Shown piece by piece: positions 3,665-54,694 of a DNA stretch of 64,000 nucleotides. The position numbers were made by a program, and so were the translations under genes. Numbering within the stretch: the stretch's first letter is position 1; the number at the start of each line of letters is the position of its first letter. A model generated the notes under the pieces. The model was not told the origin of the DNA, searched no databases, and worked only from the letters and a program-made list of their open reading frames with translations. The stretch is from Mesoaciditoga lauensis cd-1655R = DSM 25116. GTDB lineage: Bacteria > Thermotogota > Thermotogae > Mesoaciditogales > Mesoaciditogaceae. The stretch covers positions 1 through 64,000 of the forward strand of contig NZ_KN050691.1 of the NCBI RefSeq assembly GCF_000745455.1. The letters are read 5' to 3'.

Positions 3665-4816
3665 ATGAGGAATATTTCTAAAACCGTTGATGCAATAGAA
3701 TCATCGCTGACGTTACGTATAGATTCAAAAGCAAAAGCCATGAAAAAAGAGGGAAAAGATCTTGTCCTCTTTACAGCCGGAGAACCTGACTTTGATACCC
3801 CTCAAGCGGTAAAAGAAGCCGCCATCGAAGCCATAAATGCAAACTTTACCAAGTACACCAAGTCAAGTGGAATAATAGAATTGAGAGAGGGTATCTGTGA
3901 AAAATTGAAAAAAGATAATGGTCTCGAATATTCTCCAGATGAAATAGTCGTTTCAAATGGAGGAAAACAAGCACTGTTCAACATATTTGGCGCAATACTC
4001 AATCCAGGTGATGAGGTAATCGTATTGACTCCAGCATGGGTCAGCTATTCCCCTCAAATCAAAATGTGGAAAGCGAAGCCAACTGAGGTGAAAACTTATC
4101 CAGAAAATGACTATCTTCCTCAAGAAGAAGACTTAGAAAAAGCTATAACCGATAAAACCAAAGCCATTCTTTTCAACTCTCCCAACAACCCAACAGGCGC
4201 CGTTTATGACAAAAGGACACTTGAAATGTTGGCTCACATCGCACAAAAACATGATCTATACATAGTAGCTGACGAAGTATACGAGAAGATGGTTTACGAT
4301 CTTCCACACATTTCCATAGCCTCTTTCGATGGCATGAAAGAGAGGACCTTGATAATAAACGGCTTTTCTAAAAGTCATGCCATGACAGGATGGAGGGTGG
4401 GATATTCCGTTGCCTCACTGAACATATCAAAACAGATTTCAAAAATTCAATCGCACACGACTTCTAACATAAACTCCATTACTCAAAAAGCAGCTTTGAA
4501 GGCGTTAAGCGTTGATACCAAATACATGATGGACGAATACAAAAAACGTCGTGACTTGATAAGTGACATGCTATCAAATGCAAATTTCAAATTCTTCAAA
4601 CCAAAAGGTGCTTTCTACGTTATGGTAAATATGACCGAATTTTTGACAGATGAAAAAAATACGGAAGATCTTTGCATGGAGTTGATGGAAAAAGCTGGCG
4701 TTGCGCTTATTCCTGCAGATGCGTTTGGAGCAAAAGGGTTCGTAAGGATTTCATTTGCAACATCTCAGGAGCTCATTAAAAAAGGAATAAACAGGCTAAT
4801 TGAGTACTTGAAATAA
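3665..4816 (+). CDS. aspC: Pyridoxal-phosphate aminotransferase, class I (aspartate type)
   Basis: 383 residues, standard length for the aspartate/aromatic aminotransferase subgroup I-gamma found in thermophiles. Visible motifs are FTAGEPDFDTP near the N terminus, SNGGKQALFN (cofactor phosphate contact), FNSPNNPTG around 175, VADEVYE around 205, and INGFSKSHAMTGWRVGY, in which the lysine of FSKS is the PLP Schiff-base residue. The conserved arginine in FVRISFA near the C terminus would bind the substrate carboxylate. It transfers amino groups between L-aspartate (or a related amino acid) and 2-oxoglutarate. The gene symbol reflects the family; exact substrate range is not decided by sequence. 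A promoter for the next gene overlaps its 3' end. Confidence 0.85.
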   Translation: MRNISKTVDAIESSLTLRIDSKAKAMKKEGKDLVLFTAGEPDFDTPQAVKEAAIEAINANFTKYTKSSGIIELREGICEKLKKDNGLEYSPDEIVVSNGGKQALFNIFGAILNPGDEVIVLTPAWVSYSPQIKMWKAKPTEVKTYPENDYLPQEEDLEKAITDKTKAILFNSPNNPTGAVYDKRTLEMLAHIAQKHDLYIVADEVYEKMVYDLPHISIASFDGMKERTLIINGFSKSHAMTGWRVGYSVASLNISKQISKIQSHTTSNINSITQKAALKALSVDTKYMMDEYKKRRDLISDMLSNANFKFFKPKGAFYVMVNMTEFLTDEKNTEDLCMELMEKAGVALIPADAFGAKGFVRISFATSQELIKKGINRLIEYLK

Positions 4817-4836
4817 AATCAAAGTTATCATATAAT
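4808..4836 (+). promoter_or_regulatory. Sigma-70-type promoter for the folT leader
   Basis: TTGAAA at 4808-4813 and a consensus TATAAT at 4831-4836 are separated by 17 bases. The -35 hexamer lies across the last codons of the aminotransferase gene. Transcription would start near 4843 and give a leader of about 125 bases before folT. Confidence 0.8.
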
Positions 4837-4848
4837 CAAATAGCACTA

Positions 4849-4904
4849 CGAAAAGGGCGTTGTTTTTCGCGTTTCCAGCCCGTAAAATATGGGAAACGGA
4901 ATCA
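4849..4904 (+). promoter_or_regulatory. Candidate riboswitch/attenuator aptamer (pseudoknot-capable leader)
   Basis: The RNA from 4849 to 4898 can form a small hairpin (CGAAAA 4849-4854 with TTTTCG 4864-4869) whose loop GGGC (4855-4858) is complementary to GCCC (4878-4881), giving a pseudoknot. Directly after the hairpin, CGTTTCC (4870-4876) is complementary to GGAAACG (4892-4898), which is also the 5' arm of the downstream terminator. Formation of this second helix would therefore block the terminator. The arrangement (promoter, knotted element, switchable terminator, transporter gene) is that of a transcription-attenuating riboswitch. The likely ligand is a folate or related vitamin because of the gene controlled, but I do not see the tetrahydrofolate riboswitch consensus. 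Structure is read by eye; class is unknown. Confidence 0.6.
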
Positions 4905-4928
4905 TAAATGATTCCGTTTCCTTTTTTT
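4892..4928 (+). terminator. Intrinsic terminator inside the folT leader
   Basis: A perfect 13-bp stem (4892-4904 with 4909-4921), loop TAAA, followed by seven T residues at 4922-4928. It sits between the promoter at 4808 and the folT start at 4968, so it would stop transcription before the gene unless the competing helix with 4870-4876 forms. Confidence 0.9.
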
Positions 4929-4967
4929 GAAAGCAGCTTCGAATTCATACCGATTGGAGGAATGTAA

Positions 4968-5519
4968 ATGAAAAAAAGCACCGTGGATATCAAAAGGTTA
5001 ACAATCAACTCAGCGTTTATAGCTCTCAGCGTCGTTTTAGAGAGATTTTTATCCCTGAGAATATCCTTTTTCGGTGTGGAAGGTGTGAGAATAGGTATAG
5101 GAGCATTGCCAATATTTTTGTCTGGATTTATATTTGAACCTATGGATGGGCTTATCGTTGGCGCGTTAAGCGATTTGGTAGGATATTTTATAAGCCCAAT
5201 GGGAATTTACATGCCACAGTTTACCCTCACATCCGCTTTAACTGGCTGGATCCCGGCCATTGTATACAAGTATTTCTTCAGACGAAAGTTGAACTTTCTT
5301 TCACTTTTTGTAGCAATAGGAATTGGGCAATTCATAACGGATGTCGTGATGGTACCGTATTTTATACATACTCTTTTTCATGTTCCGTATGCAGTTTTAA
5401 TGCCAACAAGGGCTATCGGTTATGCCATAATGCTTTTTGTATATCCTGTCCTTACCTTACCTGTAATGAAAAGGATCCCTGCCGTTCGTCAGATGGTTCT
5501 TACCAAAAAAGTTGAATGA
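4968..5519 (+). CDS. folT: Folate-type ECF transporter S component
   Basis: 183 residues, with about six hydrophobic segments and the typical S-component layout. Residues around 40-110 (RIGIGALPIFLSGFIFEPMDG, then GALSDLVGYF and FTLTSALTGWIP) match the FolT subgroup pattern of a ligand-binding membrane subunit. It would bind the vitamin and work with the shared EcfT and EcfA/A' energy module, which is not encoded here. GGAGG at 4956-4960 gives good spacing to ATG 4968; ATG 4962 is too close. The gene stands alone behind its own promoter and switchable leader. Folate specificity is inferred from family resemblance; another pterin or vitamin remains possible. Confidence 0.75.
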   Translation: MKKSTVDIKRLTINSAFIALSVVLERFLSLRISFFGVEGVRIGIGALPIFLSGFIFEPMDGLIVGALSDLVGYFISPMGIYMPQFTLTSALTGWIPAIVYKYFFRRKLNFLSLFVAIGIGQFITDVVMVPYFIHTLFHVPYAVLMPTRAIGYAIMLFVYPVLTLPVMKRIPAVRQMVLTKKVE

Positions 5520-5603
5520 AACCTTTTTGCATTGTTAAGTCCTTATATTTTGCCAAGAATACAAACCTAACAAAGTTTTTTCTTCTTCGCCTTTCCCTCC
5601 CTA

Positions 5604-5701
5604 TTTTTGAAGTTTCTGTCAAAACATATGAAGACGCCATACAAGATGCGAAATAACAGAGTTGGAGGCACAGGATGTGCCGAGAAAGCGAATCTAACAG
5701 T
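5604..5701 (+). repeat. Family B repeat, left half (B1)
   Basis: About 98 bases equal to the left half of the full family B elements at 8370 and 14314: the arm GAAGTTTCTGTCAAAAC, the segment CCATACAAGATGC, the hairpin GGCACAGGATGTGCC and the core GAGAAAGCGAATC. The right half is missing. It is followed head-to-tail by family A copy A1, and the same B-half plus A unit recurs inverted at 42489-43110. Confidence 0.85.
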
Positions 5702-5722
5702 TTTTTCTTCTTCCCCTTTCTC

Positions 5723-5906
5723 TTTATCGAAACCCAAGCCAGCACTTATGAACTCTCCATCTGGAGACTCATAAAAACGAGGTTGGGAAACACACGGATG
5801 TGTTGAGAAAGCGAAGCACTCATGGACGAGTGTCTGAGCGTGCCTCGTTTTTTGGGTCGTAAGATGGGTAAAAGAGTGAATCCGGGCTGGCTTGGGTTTC
5901 GATAAA
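5723..5906 (+). repeat. Family A inverted-repeat element (A1)
   Basis: The ends are perfect 21-base inverted arms (5723-5743 and 5886-5906, containing CGAAACCCAAGCCAGC and its complement). Inside are an imperfect second stem, a nested stem ending in AAAACGAGG / CCTCGTTTT, and two small hairpins: AACACA-CGGA-TGTGTT, and CACTC with GAGTG. The core GAGAAAGCGAAG lies between the two small hairpins. The stretch 5520-6031 contains no gene; it holds B1, A1 and a TATAAT-like box at 5970 before the patatin gene. Confidence 0.9.
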
Positions 5907-6031
5907 TATCTTCAATGATCACCTTTTTCCACCAATCAAAATCGTTACTTTCACCTCCATCAGGAGTTGTATAATTAAAAAAGGATTTGATTCATTAAAA
6001 AGAAGGTGATCTTTCAACGAAAAAGGTAAGC

Positions 6032-7968: not shown

Positions 7969-8140
7969 CGAAGTCCTGTCAGAACGGATTCGCTCTTCTT
8001 TCCGTCTTCCTAATTCACAATATGAGGCACGCTCAGACACTCGTCCATGAATGCTTCGCTTTCTCGGCACGTCCTGTGCCTCTCAACCTCATATTTTGAA
8101 TCCTCAGCTGGCGAGCTCATATGTTCTGACAAGTACTTCG
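7969..8140 (-). repeat. Family A' inverted-repeat element (A2)
   Basis: The arms are CGAAGTCCTGTCAGAAC on the left and GTTCTGACAAGTACTTCG on the right, a different arm sequence from A1 but again nearly complementary to each other. The interior carries the same hairpins and the core in reverse (TTCGCTTTCTC). It is flanked by AAAACCCGCTTTCCAAGCGG on the left, a motif seen beside other copies (8557, 11922, 54470). No gene is supported in 7803-8677: the stretch holds A2, then the composite element 8219-8613. Confidence 0.85.
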
Positions 8141-8218
8141 AGGGTGAGGTTTAATCCCTTTTTGAAATGCTTTGTAACATTGACACACAGGTTGAGTCTT
8201 TTAGGTTCTCTTCATTTT

Positions 8219-8613
8219 GTGTGGGTAAAACATGACAAATCTCTATTCTGTCCTTGTAAGTTTGAACAAAGTCATTCAAAGACACCTTGTTATCAAGTAA
8301 AAGAACAAGCATACTCGAAGCACTGTCAGGACATATGAACTCATTGTTTTTTCGTTTCTATCAACCCTTGAAGCCTTCGTCAAAACATATGAAGACGCCA
8401 TACAAGATGCGAAATAACAGAGTTGGAGGCACAGGACGTGCCGAGAAAGCAAATCTAACAGGATGTTTGTATGCAGCGGGCTCTGTTATGAGCATCTTCT
8501 ATGGATATACGTCTGAATCAGTTTTGACAAGGCTTCAAAAAGATTACACCCACCGCTTGTAAAGCGGTACTAAAATGTCAAAGAATGTGTTATTTAAAAA
8601 ATACTACCCACAC
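8219..8613 (+). repeat. Framed composite element with TIR GTGTGGGTA
   Basis: The stretch is bounded by GTGTGGGTA (8219-8227) and its exact complement TACCCACAC (8605-8613); next inside are ACATGACA and TGTCAAAGAATGTG. Bases 8230-8340 match 11642-11755 closely, and 8540-8595 match 11910-11965, so this and 11633-11983 are the same framed element. Here a left family A' arm (8313-8340) is followed by a complete family B hairpin rather than a family A core, which suggests nested insertion or replacement. Confidence 0.75.
8370..8536 (+). repeat. Family B inverted-repeat element, full length (B2)
   Basis: The outer arms GAAGCCTTCGTCAAAAC (8370-8386) and GTTTTGACAAGGCTTC (8521-8536) are complementary apart from one small bulge. 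Nested inside are ACAAGATGC with GCATCTTCT, AACAGAG with CTCTGTT, and the tip hairpin GGCACAGGA-TGTGCC (loop within) followed by GAGAAAGC. The whole can fold into one long rod with a side branch. Confidence 0.85.
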
Positions 8614-11632: not shown

Positions 11633-11983
11633 GTGCGGCTAAAACATGCCAATTTTTATTCTGTCTGTTGTTGTAGTTTTGAACAAAATTATCCAAAAAT
11701 ACCTTGTTATCAAGTAAAAGGACAAGCATCCTCGAAGTACTTGTCAGAACATATGAGCTTCCCATCTGAAGATTCATAAATATGAAGTTGAGAGACACAG
11801 GATGTGCCGAGAAAGCGAAGCACTCACGGACGAGTGTCTGAGCGTGCCTCATATTTTGAATTGTAAGATGGAAAGAAGAGCGAATCCGTTCTGACAAGTG
11901 CTTCGAGAAAAATCACCTTTACCGCTTGGAAAGCGGTGGTAAAATGTCAAAGGATGCTATTATTCGAAATATGTTATCCACAC
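11633..11983 (+). repeat. Framed composite element carrying a family A' core (A3 at 11731-11907)
   Basis: The outer ends GTGCGGCTA (11633-11641) and TATCCACAC (11975-11983) are imperfect inverted repeats equivalent to those of 8219-8613. The nested A' core has arms CTCGAAGTACTTGTCAGAAC (11731-11750) and its complement (11888-11907) with one G-T type mismatch. The tip hairpins CACAGGATGTG and CACTC/GAGTG and the core GAGAAAGCGAAG are present. Just outside the right arm is the hairpin CCGCTTGGAAAGCGG (11920-11934). The stretch 11551-12033 holds only this element. Confidence 0.82.
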
Positions 11984-14033: not shown

Positions 14034-14080
14034 CGCTTTTTAGGAACAGAGTTGGAGAAAGCGAATCTGACAGAGTTTTT
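14034..14080 (+). repeat. Eroded family B half (B6 remnant)
   Basis: AACAGAGTTGGAGAAAGCGA and ATCTGACAGAG match the family B left half with the GGCACAGGATGTGCC hairpin deleted. It precedes copy A4 exactly as B1 precedes A1, so this is a degenerate B-half plus A composite. Confidence 0.6.
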
Positions 14081-14103
14081 TCCTCTCTCCCCATTTTTCT
14101 TTT

Positions 14104-14276
14104 CGAAACACTTGCCAACACTTATGAACTCTCCATCTGGAGACTCTAAAAACGAGGTTGAGAAACACATGGATGTGTTGAGAAAGCGAAGCACTCATGG
14201 ATGAGTGTCTGAGCGTGCCTCGTTTTTTGAGTCGTAAGATGGATAAAAGAGTGAATTCGTGCTGGCACGTGTTTCG
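14104..14276 (+). repeat. Family A inverted-repeat element (A4)
   Basis: The arms CGAAACACTTGCCAACAC (14104-14121) and GTGCTGGCACGTGTTTCG (14259-14276) pair with two mismatches; they differ from A1 on both sides in a matched way (ACACTTGCC against ACCCAAGCC). In this copy the internal CACTCAT-GG-ATGAGTG hairpin is perfect. Confidence 0.88.
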
Positions 14277-14313
14277 GATTAATCATGCTTTTCTCTGCCT
14301 TTCCCTCTCCTTT

Positions 14314-14488
14314 TTTTGAAGTTTCTGTCAAAACATATGAAGACACCATACAAGATGCGAAATAACGGAGTTGGAGGCACACGATGTGCCGAGAAAGCGA
14401 ATCTAACAGGATGTTTGTATGCAGCGGGCTCTGTTATGAGCATCTTGTATGGAGATACGTCTGAATCAGTTTTGACAAAACTTCAAAA
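14314..14488 (+). repeat. Family B inverted-repeat element, full length (B3)
   Basis: The outer arms TTTTGAAGTTTCTGTCAAAA (14314-14333) and GTTTTGACAAAACTTCAAAA (14469-14488) pair with a one-base bulge; CCATACAAGATGC and GCATCTTGTATGG are a perfect 13-bp inner stem, better than in B2; AACGGAG and CTCTGTT form the next stem. The tip is GGCACACGATGTGCC with GAGAAAGCGAATC. It ends about 24 bases before the stop codon of the next minus-strand gene. Confidence 0.88.
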
Positions 14489-42446: not shown

Positions 42447-42488
42447 ACGTGCGGGAGTAAGGAATTATGATATGCAAAGAATATTTAT

Positions 42489-42662
42489 CGAAACACATTC
42501 CAGCACGGATTCACTCTTTTACCCATCTTACGACTCTAAAAACGAGGCACGCTCAGACACTCGTCCGTGAGTGTTTCGCTTTCTCAACACATCCGTGTGT
42601 TTCCCAACCTCGTTTTTATGAGTCTCCAGCTGGAGAGCTCATAAGTGCTGGCAGGTGTTTCG
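42489..42662 (-). repeat. Family A inverted-repeat element (A5)
   Basis: The arms CGAAACACATTCCAGCAC and GTGCTGGCAGGTGTTTCG pair with two mismatches; the interior has hairpins as in A1, inverted. Together with B4 it forms an inverted B-half plus A composite. Confidence 0.88.
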
Positions 42663-42684
42663 AAAGGAGAAAGGGTGGAAAAAA

Positions 42685-42784
42685 CCTGTTAGATTCGCTT
42701 TCTGGGCACATCCTGTGCCTCCAACTCTGTTATTTCGCATCTTGTGTGGCGTCTTCATATGTTTTGACAGAAACTTCAAAAAAA
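42685..42784 (-). repeat. Family B half repeat (B4)
   Basis: Inverse of B1: the core GATTCGCTTTCTGGGCACAT and its neighbour, the segment GCATCTTGTGTGG and the arm GTTTTGACAGAAACTTC. Only the left half of the family is present. Confidence 0.85.
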
Positions 42785-42819
42785 AGAGAGAGAAAAGCGA
42801 AGAAAAGCATAATTGATCT

Positions 42820-42991
42820 GAACACTTGCCAGCACGAATTCACTCTTTTATCCATCTTACGACTCAAAAAACGAGGCACGCTCAGACACTCATCCGTGAG
42901 TGCTTCGCTTTCTCAACACATCCGTGTGTTTTCCAACCTCGTTTTTATGAGTCTCCAGATGGTGAGTTCATAAGTGCTGGGGAGTGTTTCG
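42820..42991 (-). repeat. Family A inverted-repeat element (A6)
   Basis: The arms GAACACTTGCCAGCAC and GTGCTGGGGAGTGTTTCG pair imperfectly. With B5 it is a direct tandem copy of the A5-B4 unit, about 36 bases downstream. The stretch 42447-43130 contains no gene, only these two composite units. Confidence 0.85.
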
Positions 42992-43010
42992 AATGGGAGA
43001 GAGGAAAAAC

Positions 43011-43110
43011 TCTGTCAGATTCGCTTTCTCGGCACGTCGTGTGCCTCCAACTCTGTTATTTCACATCTTGTATGGCGTCTTCATATGTTTTGACAGAAAC
43101 TTCAAAAAAA
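43011..43110 (-). repeat. Family B half repeat (B5)
   Basis: As B4, with the hairpin GGCACGTCGTGTGCC in place of GGCACATCCTGTGCC: the stem is kept while loop bases change. It ends directly before the Shine-Dalgarno region of the gene at 43131, so any promoter of that gene lies within or beyond the repeat. Confidence 0.85.
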
Positions 43111-43130
43111 GAGAAAAGAGGCGATGACAA

Positions 43131-54185: not shown

Positions 54186-54694
54186 GTCCATTTAATACCG
54201 AAAAAAAGCAAAATTAGCCAAATATTAGCGTTTAGATTTCTTTAGCATAAAATTACTTATAATATCTTCGAAATACTTAGAATTTTTCATCTACAAACTT
54301 ATAAACAAAATCTAATTTTAAAATAAAGTTGAACTTACATCGCGAGAAAAACTCAAATTATGCAAGCCGAACTAAGAAGTAAAATACTCATCCCGTGCAT
54401 GAAGTTTAAGAAAACAACCGAAAATTTTGTCCTCGTTTTCGAAGGAAATGTCGACGATGCGATAAAATCCGCTTTCCAAGTGGCCAAGGCAATTTTTTCT
54501 AAGTCCTGTCAGAACGGATTCGCTCTTCTTTCCATCTTACAATTCAAATATGAGGCACGCTCAGACACTCGTCCATGAGTGCTTCGCTTTCTCGGCACGT
54601 CCTGTGCCTTTCAATCTTATATTTAGATCCTGAATCAAGTTCAGAATACTCTAGTAAATCAAGAGTGAATTTTTAAGGAATTTTATTTTTTCAA

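Follow-up and report, generated by a model that had tools for sequence, protein, structure and literature searches.

A conserved candidate regulatory RNA with a predicted pseudoknot antiterminator precedes folT genes in the Mesoaciditogaceae

The DNA analyzed here (the window) comprises 64,000 nucleotides (nt) of Mesoaciditoga lauensis cd-1655R = DSM 25116 (contig NZ_KN050691.1, positions 1-64,000). Its plus strand carries a gene of the folT family of energy-coupling factor (ECF) transporter S components, preceded by a leader (4843-4928) that closes with an intrinsic terminator. The product of the gene scores 121.7 bits against TIGR04518, for which the curated cut-off is 60, and its nearest solved structures by sequence are the FolT proteins 4z7f, 5d3m and 5d0y. 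Upstream lies an aspartate aminotransferase gene ending at 4816, and the -35 box of the promoter falls across its final codons. The features of the locus are as follows, S1 and S2 being the stems and L1 to L3 the loops of a predicted H-type pseudoknot.

4808-4836, plus strand: sigma-70-type promoter, TTGAAA-17-TATAAT, 11/12 consensus matches
4849-4869, plus strand: hairpin of 6 base pairs (bp) in the window, CGAAAA (4849-4854) with TTTTCG (4864-4869), only AAA/UUU being common to orthologues
4855-4858, plus strand: S1, 5' strand, GGGC, in the loop of that hairpin; invariant in 4/4 leaders
4859-4869, plus strand: L1, invariant GTTGTTT with 3-4 variable nt after it; may form a third strand in the major groove
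4870-4876, plus strand: S2, 5' strand, CGTTTCC, repeated directly in the 3' arm of the terminator; the antiterminator strand
4877, plus strand: L2, a single A (A4877); invariant
4878-4881, plus strand: S1, 3' strand, GCCC, complementary to GGGC
4882-4891, plus strand: L3, A-rich, AAAA.A invariant; 10-12 nt across the four leaders
4892-4898, plus strand: S2, 3' strand, GGAAACG, the switching strand, shared with the base of the 5' arm of the terminator
4892-4928, plus strand: intrinsic terminator with a perfect 13-bp stem (4892-4904/4909-4921), loop TAAA and T7 at 4922-4928
4968-5519, plus strand: folT-family ECF transporter S component, 183 amino acids; ribosome-binding site GGAGG at 4956-4960

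A first-pass annotation of this DNA, made by a model from the sequence alone, had described most of these parts, and they are borne out: a consensus promoter, a hairpin loop GGGC complementary to a downstream GCCC, a helix CGTTTCC/GGAAACG in competition with the terminator, the perfect 13-bp terminator stem itself, and folT beyond it. Since GGAAACG is one strand of S2 and at the same time the base of the terminator 5' arm, the two structures are mutually exclusive, and for the same reason a pseudoknot containing S2 would be the antiterminator.

The strongest evidence that this leader is a functional unit comes from its orthologues. A FolT protein query against 41 related genomes recovered 14 homologues, 4 of them in the Mesoaciditogaceae (the window included), and the leader is present at all four of these family genes, with promoter-like sequences at the equivalent place in L002, L003 and L004. 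The shared pattern is AAAGGGCGTTGTTT-nnn-CGTTTCCAGCCC-nn(n)AAAAnAnnGGAAACGG, beyond which lies the terminator. Within the core of 46-48 nt the four leaders are 85-96% identical, and identity falls to 55-67% over the 60 bases upstream, 66-77% in the folT DNA (the values for the L004 folT are approximate) and 59-74% in the spacer between terminator and start codon (three genomes, the L004 spacer not being used). In L004 the sequence further upstream is different and the leader is nonetheless kept beside folT, indicating that it travels with this gene. The four closest orthologues therefore keep the whole core, and not the terminator alone, which would have counted against the first-pass reading. 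The element is confirmed as real and in excess of chance, the conserved core in four orthologous leaders being the chief evidence.

Outside these genes the leader was not recovered. A covariance model of the core scored 73-78 bits at the four leader loci and 26 bits or less elsewhere in 103 Thermotogota genomes; of the matches of 20-26 bits, the top ones examined (L019 and L021, in nuoF, together with L020, L048, L049 and L050) lie mostly inside coding frames and were rejected as chance. Nothing similar was found at the loci of 17 other Thermotogota folT genes, even with the filters off, so that the survey of folT upstream regions proposed earlier finds the pairing conserved in the four Mesoaciditogaceae leaders and absent from the other 17 loci. 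The pattern GGGCGTTGTTT-N1..12-CGTTTCCAGCCC, searched over 84,980 species, returned only the records of the other three Mesoaciditogaceae leaders (the record of the window itself may have been excluded), and a scan of viral contigs for the leader gave no match. No paper describing the folT leader of Mesoaciditogaceae was found in a literature search.

What is conserved in the core differs in one respect from the earlier description, which had taken pairing across 4849-4898 as the unit. The GGGC/GCCC and CGTTTCC/GGAAACG complementarities hold in all four leaders, but the 6-bp hairpin at 4849-4869 keeps only 3/6 pairs (AAA/UUU) and was ruled out as the conserved core. Instead, S1 and S2 can interleave as an H-type pseudoknot in 4/4 leaders, with S1 of 4 bp (5 in L004), S2 of 7 bp, L1 of 10-11 nt, L2 of one A and L3 of 10-12 nt. 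The energy of this predicted fold, summed over stacks with a flat penalty of 9.6 kcal/mol at 37 C, is estimated at -12.4 to -14.0 kcal/mol in the four leaders, and the best H-type pseudoknot energy was reached in just 6, 0, 1 and 1 of 1000 dinucleotide shuffles of the respective natural sequences. The full leader also folds better than its shuffles (z = -3.8), the terminator being the main cause, and the terminator shows one compensatory A-U to G-C change among orthologues. When only nested pairing is allowed, the 5' part does not fold better than its shuffles do (z = 0.06), and simple hairpins consequently fail to explain its conservation. With the terminator held fixed, a 7-mer antiterminator occurs in 7.2% of dinucleotide shuffles of the leader, and with the enclosing 4-bp G/C stem in addition in 0.5%. 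Moreover, a plain antiterminator would not account for the invariant unpaired GTTGTTT, A4877 and AAAA.A. The U-rich L1, beside the A-U pairs of S2, and the A-rich L3, beside S1, would follow the tertiary pattern usual for such pseudoknots.

The energies suggest how the two structures could alternate. Before the 3' arm of the terminator emerges, the estimate for the pseudoknot is at least as favorable as that for the best nested fold (-9.2 to -12.3 kcal/mol); once complete, the terminator (-16.5 to -22.2 kcal/mol) beats the pseudoknot at equilibrium. A pseudoknot that is ahead early and a terminator that is ahead later are as expected for a kinetic switch. In the proposed sequence of events, S1 (GGGC/GCCC) would close first during transcription of the leader and S2 (CGUUUCC/GGAAACG) next, with the GUUGUUU loop set against S2 and the A-rich loop against S1. 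Were the pseudoknot stabilized in time, GGAAACG would be held back, the terminator could not nucleate and folT would be transcribed; if not, the more stable terminator would capture the strand and transcription would end. A stabilizing effector would turn folT on, the most likely candidates being either a metabolite signaling that folate or one-carbon supply is short, or a folate or pterin that can be imported and would itself induce that import.

Known RNAs offer partial parallels to this layout. Rfam 15 gave no relevant family at gathering thresholds or, over 4780-5000, up to E = 10: only chance microRNA- or terminator-like matches, and none to the fluoride, preQ1, SAM-II/V, guanidine-III, THF-II or other classes. 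The tetrahydrofolate riboswitch THF-I (RF01831) has no match in the window at gathering or to E = 10, and none in the Mesoaciditoga lauensis genome, in agreement with the earlier remark that the leader does not fit the THF consensus. THF-I resembles the leader in controlling folT, including two folT genes of Thermotogota, but its aptamer is a three-way junction of about 100 nt (PMC9881143), an architecture absent here. In fluoride and ZMP riboswitches a pseudoknot strand is also a terminator strand and the ligand prevents its displacement (PMC11077080, PMC7337938). The fluoride (crcB) riboswitch, known in Thermotoga too, shares the kinetic ON-switch layout (PMC11077080) and differs in fold, sequence and gene context. 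The ZMP/ZTP (pfl) riboswitch comes close in its folate and one-carbon theme and as a transcriptional ON switch with a pseudoknot antiterminator (PMC7337938); its three-helix pfl motif, however, is absent from the leader. ZMP/ZTP (RF01750) matched in 0/103 Thermotogota genomes, with controls matched, which leaves the role of a one-carbon signal open for the leader and proves nothing. SAM-II, SAM-V and guanidine-III have the topology predicted here, with two stems, an L1 rich in U that could pack onto the A-U pairs in S2, and an L3 rich in A (PMC6061858, PMC5696562), although they show no sequence match, belong to other lineages and, in the case of SAM-V and guanidine-III, act on translation. 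The H-type SAM-V forms U:A.U major-groove triples (PMC6061858), which the UUU of L1 beside the AAA-UUU of S2 may recall.

The genomic distribution of folate genes bears on what FolT imports. Phylum-wide, FolT scores above the family cut-off in 21 genomes and HPPK is found in 75. Outside Mesoaciditogaceae, HPPK occurs in 0/17 FolT genomes (Fisher p ~1e-11, shared ancestry ignored), and within the subset of 40 relatives these FolT genomes are also without a strong DHPS match. This exclusion points to a loss of folate synthesis paired with folT. Furthermore, THF-I riboswitches precede two folT genes of family f7 (genomes G056 and G062; L054:2058-2161(-) at 64.8 bits and L061:2071-2169(-) at 61.0 bits), the only ones found among the 103 Thermotogota genomes; in a 2013 survey, THF riboswitches were said to be largely confined to Firmicutes (PMC3766115). 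The absence of HPPK in 17/17 genomes and the two THF-I-bearing genes make it very probable, on indirect genomic grounds, that the family is a folate importer. Within Mesoaciditogaceae, folP and folK are kept in 10/10 genomes and folT occurs in addition in 4, always with the leader; folate uptake is thus optional in the leader-bearing genomes. As separate observations, the HPPK gene of another f7 genome appears broken by in-frame stops (G058:C7:300292-300638), perhaps a sign of folate synthesis being lost, and in the relative G064 a HEARO RNA (RF02033, 152.8 bits; L064:2269-2487(+)) lies just 3' of folT.

Taken together, the leader at 4843-4928 is best interpreted as a cis-acting attenuator of folT transcription. 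A small H-type pseudoknot would serve as its antiterminator and would most likely be an aptamer of the riboswitch type, binding a metabolite and fused to the expression platform, a reading to which a probability of about 0.57 is given. As is generally looked for in a riboswitch, the 5' leader holds a conserved RNA that is aptamer-like and overlaps the expression platform, and the transcriptional riboswitch or attenuator layout proposed in the first-pass annotation holds up in the terminator-exclusive core of all four leaders. Confidence is only moderate given the narrow spread (four genomes) and absent covariation. Several points weigh against this interpretation. The element is represented by only four sequences, from a single bacterial family and before a single target gene. 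S1 and S2 can pair in every leader but never vary, and stems invariant in just four sequences leave covariation neither backing nor opposing the pseudoknot. Its energy refers to 37 C and a flat penalty, and the hosts are thermophiles. Finally, vitamin importers are not usually under ON logic, which runs counter to the common feedback, and most descriptions of THF riboswitches have them repressing. We would class the leader as a candidate cis-regulatory RNA motif that is laid out like a transcriptional ON riboswitch, without yet calling it a riboswitch. Whether it represents a new class, a minimal (~45 nt) H-type pseudoknot fused strand for strand to an intrinsic terminator, sensing folate status as a third folate-linked aptamer fold or through a one-carbon alarm metabolite and turning folate import on in bacteria that also make folate, is a more speculative proposal, which we regard as tentative.

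A feedback OFF switch would fit the way in which vitamin importers usually behave, as well as the THF-I riboswitches that precede folT in two relatives from another family. In such a switch a THF-like folate would bind the 5' hairpin with the GGGC/GCCC contact, the fold of the first-pass annotation, and tie up CGTTTCC, so that the terminator forms; the CGTTTCC/GGAAACG antiterminator would arise when ligand is absent. The AAA/UUU flanking GGGC is invariant and the window has the full 6-bp hairpin. Beyond those three A-U pairs, however, the hairpin is not conserved; the invariant A-rich stretch at 4884-4889 has no role in such a fold, and GGGC/GCCC, far from opposing S2, can by its geometry share a single pseudoknot with it, all of which makes this alternative unlikely. 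Equally improbable is control by an RNA-binding protein that holds the pseudoknot or the S2 hairpin to allow readthrough. Invariant primary sequence in a short element is also typical of a protein site, and the four orthologues cannot separate the two; of the earlier suggestion of an unassigned class or a protein-controlled attenuator, the lack of an Rfam 15 family stands. Yet RNA-binding domains of the BglG/LicT type (PF03123), the best-known kind of protein antiterminator, occur in 0/10 genomes of the family, in a search that matched in 4 controls, and no regulator gene adjoins folT. BglG/LicT-type sites have internal loops, moreover, and S2 is a perfect helix without them. A search for ANTAR matched nowhere and has no bearing on the question.

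Terminator and pseudoknot are comparable in strength, the terminator amounting to only -9.3 to -13.4 kcal/mol at 60 C, and for thermophilic hosts this would suit an effector-free device in which the conserved antiterminator sets a constitutive readthrough, or one dependent on temperature, magnesium or elongation rate. Such a device would leave unexplained the strict conservation of the unpaired GTTGTTT, A4877 and AAAA.A, as well as the restriction to folT of folate prototrophs, and it is judged somewhat less probable still. Attenuation by a leader peptide or otherwise coupled to translation can be given hardly any weight: a TTG-initiated frame of 15 codons is readable at 4860 in the window, but the indels in L1 (10 or 11 nt) and L3 (10 or 12 nt) shift the frame in the orthologues, so that no peptide is conserved, nor is there a run of one codon.

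The window also holds a dispersed repeat family, with units of ~80-300 nt in both orientations and up to 97% alike. Copies lie at 5598-5909 (directly 3' of folT), 8012-8540, 11664-11913, 14077-14488, 42481-43114 (in tandem) and 54463-54627. Several open reading frames containing 'SSYVLT' overlap this family and are probably spurious; the repeat has the look of an interspersed element that is non-coding and possibly mobile.

If the folT leader does bind a metabolite, it would represent a riboswitch class not described before, whose fold is among the smallest and whose hosts belong to a thermophilic lineage that branches deeply. Its shortness makes it easy to synthesize and probe. It also raises the question of why a stabilized RNA pseudoknot should turn a vitamin importer on and not off. 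For the Thermotogota, the picture that emerges is one in which folate auxotrophs keep folT without the leader, some of them with THF-I, and the prototrophs that possess folT would use this leader RNA.
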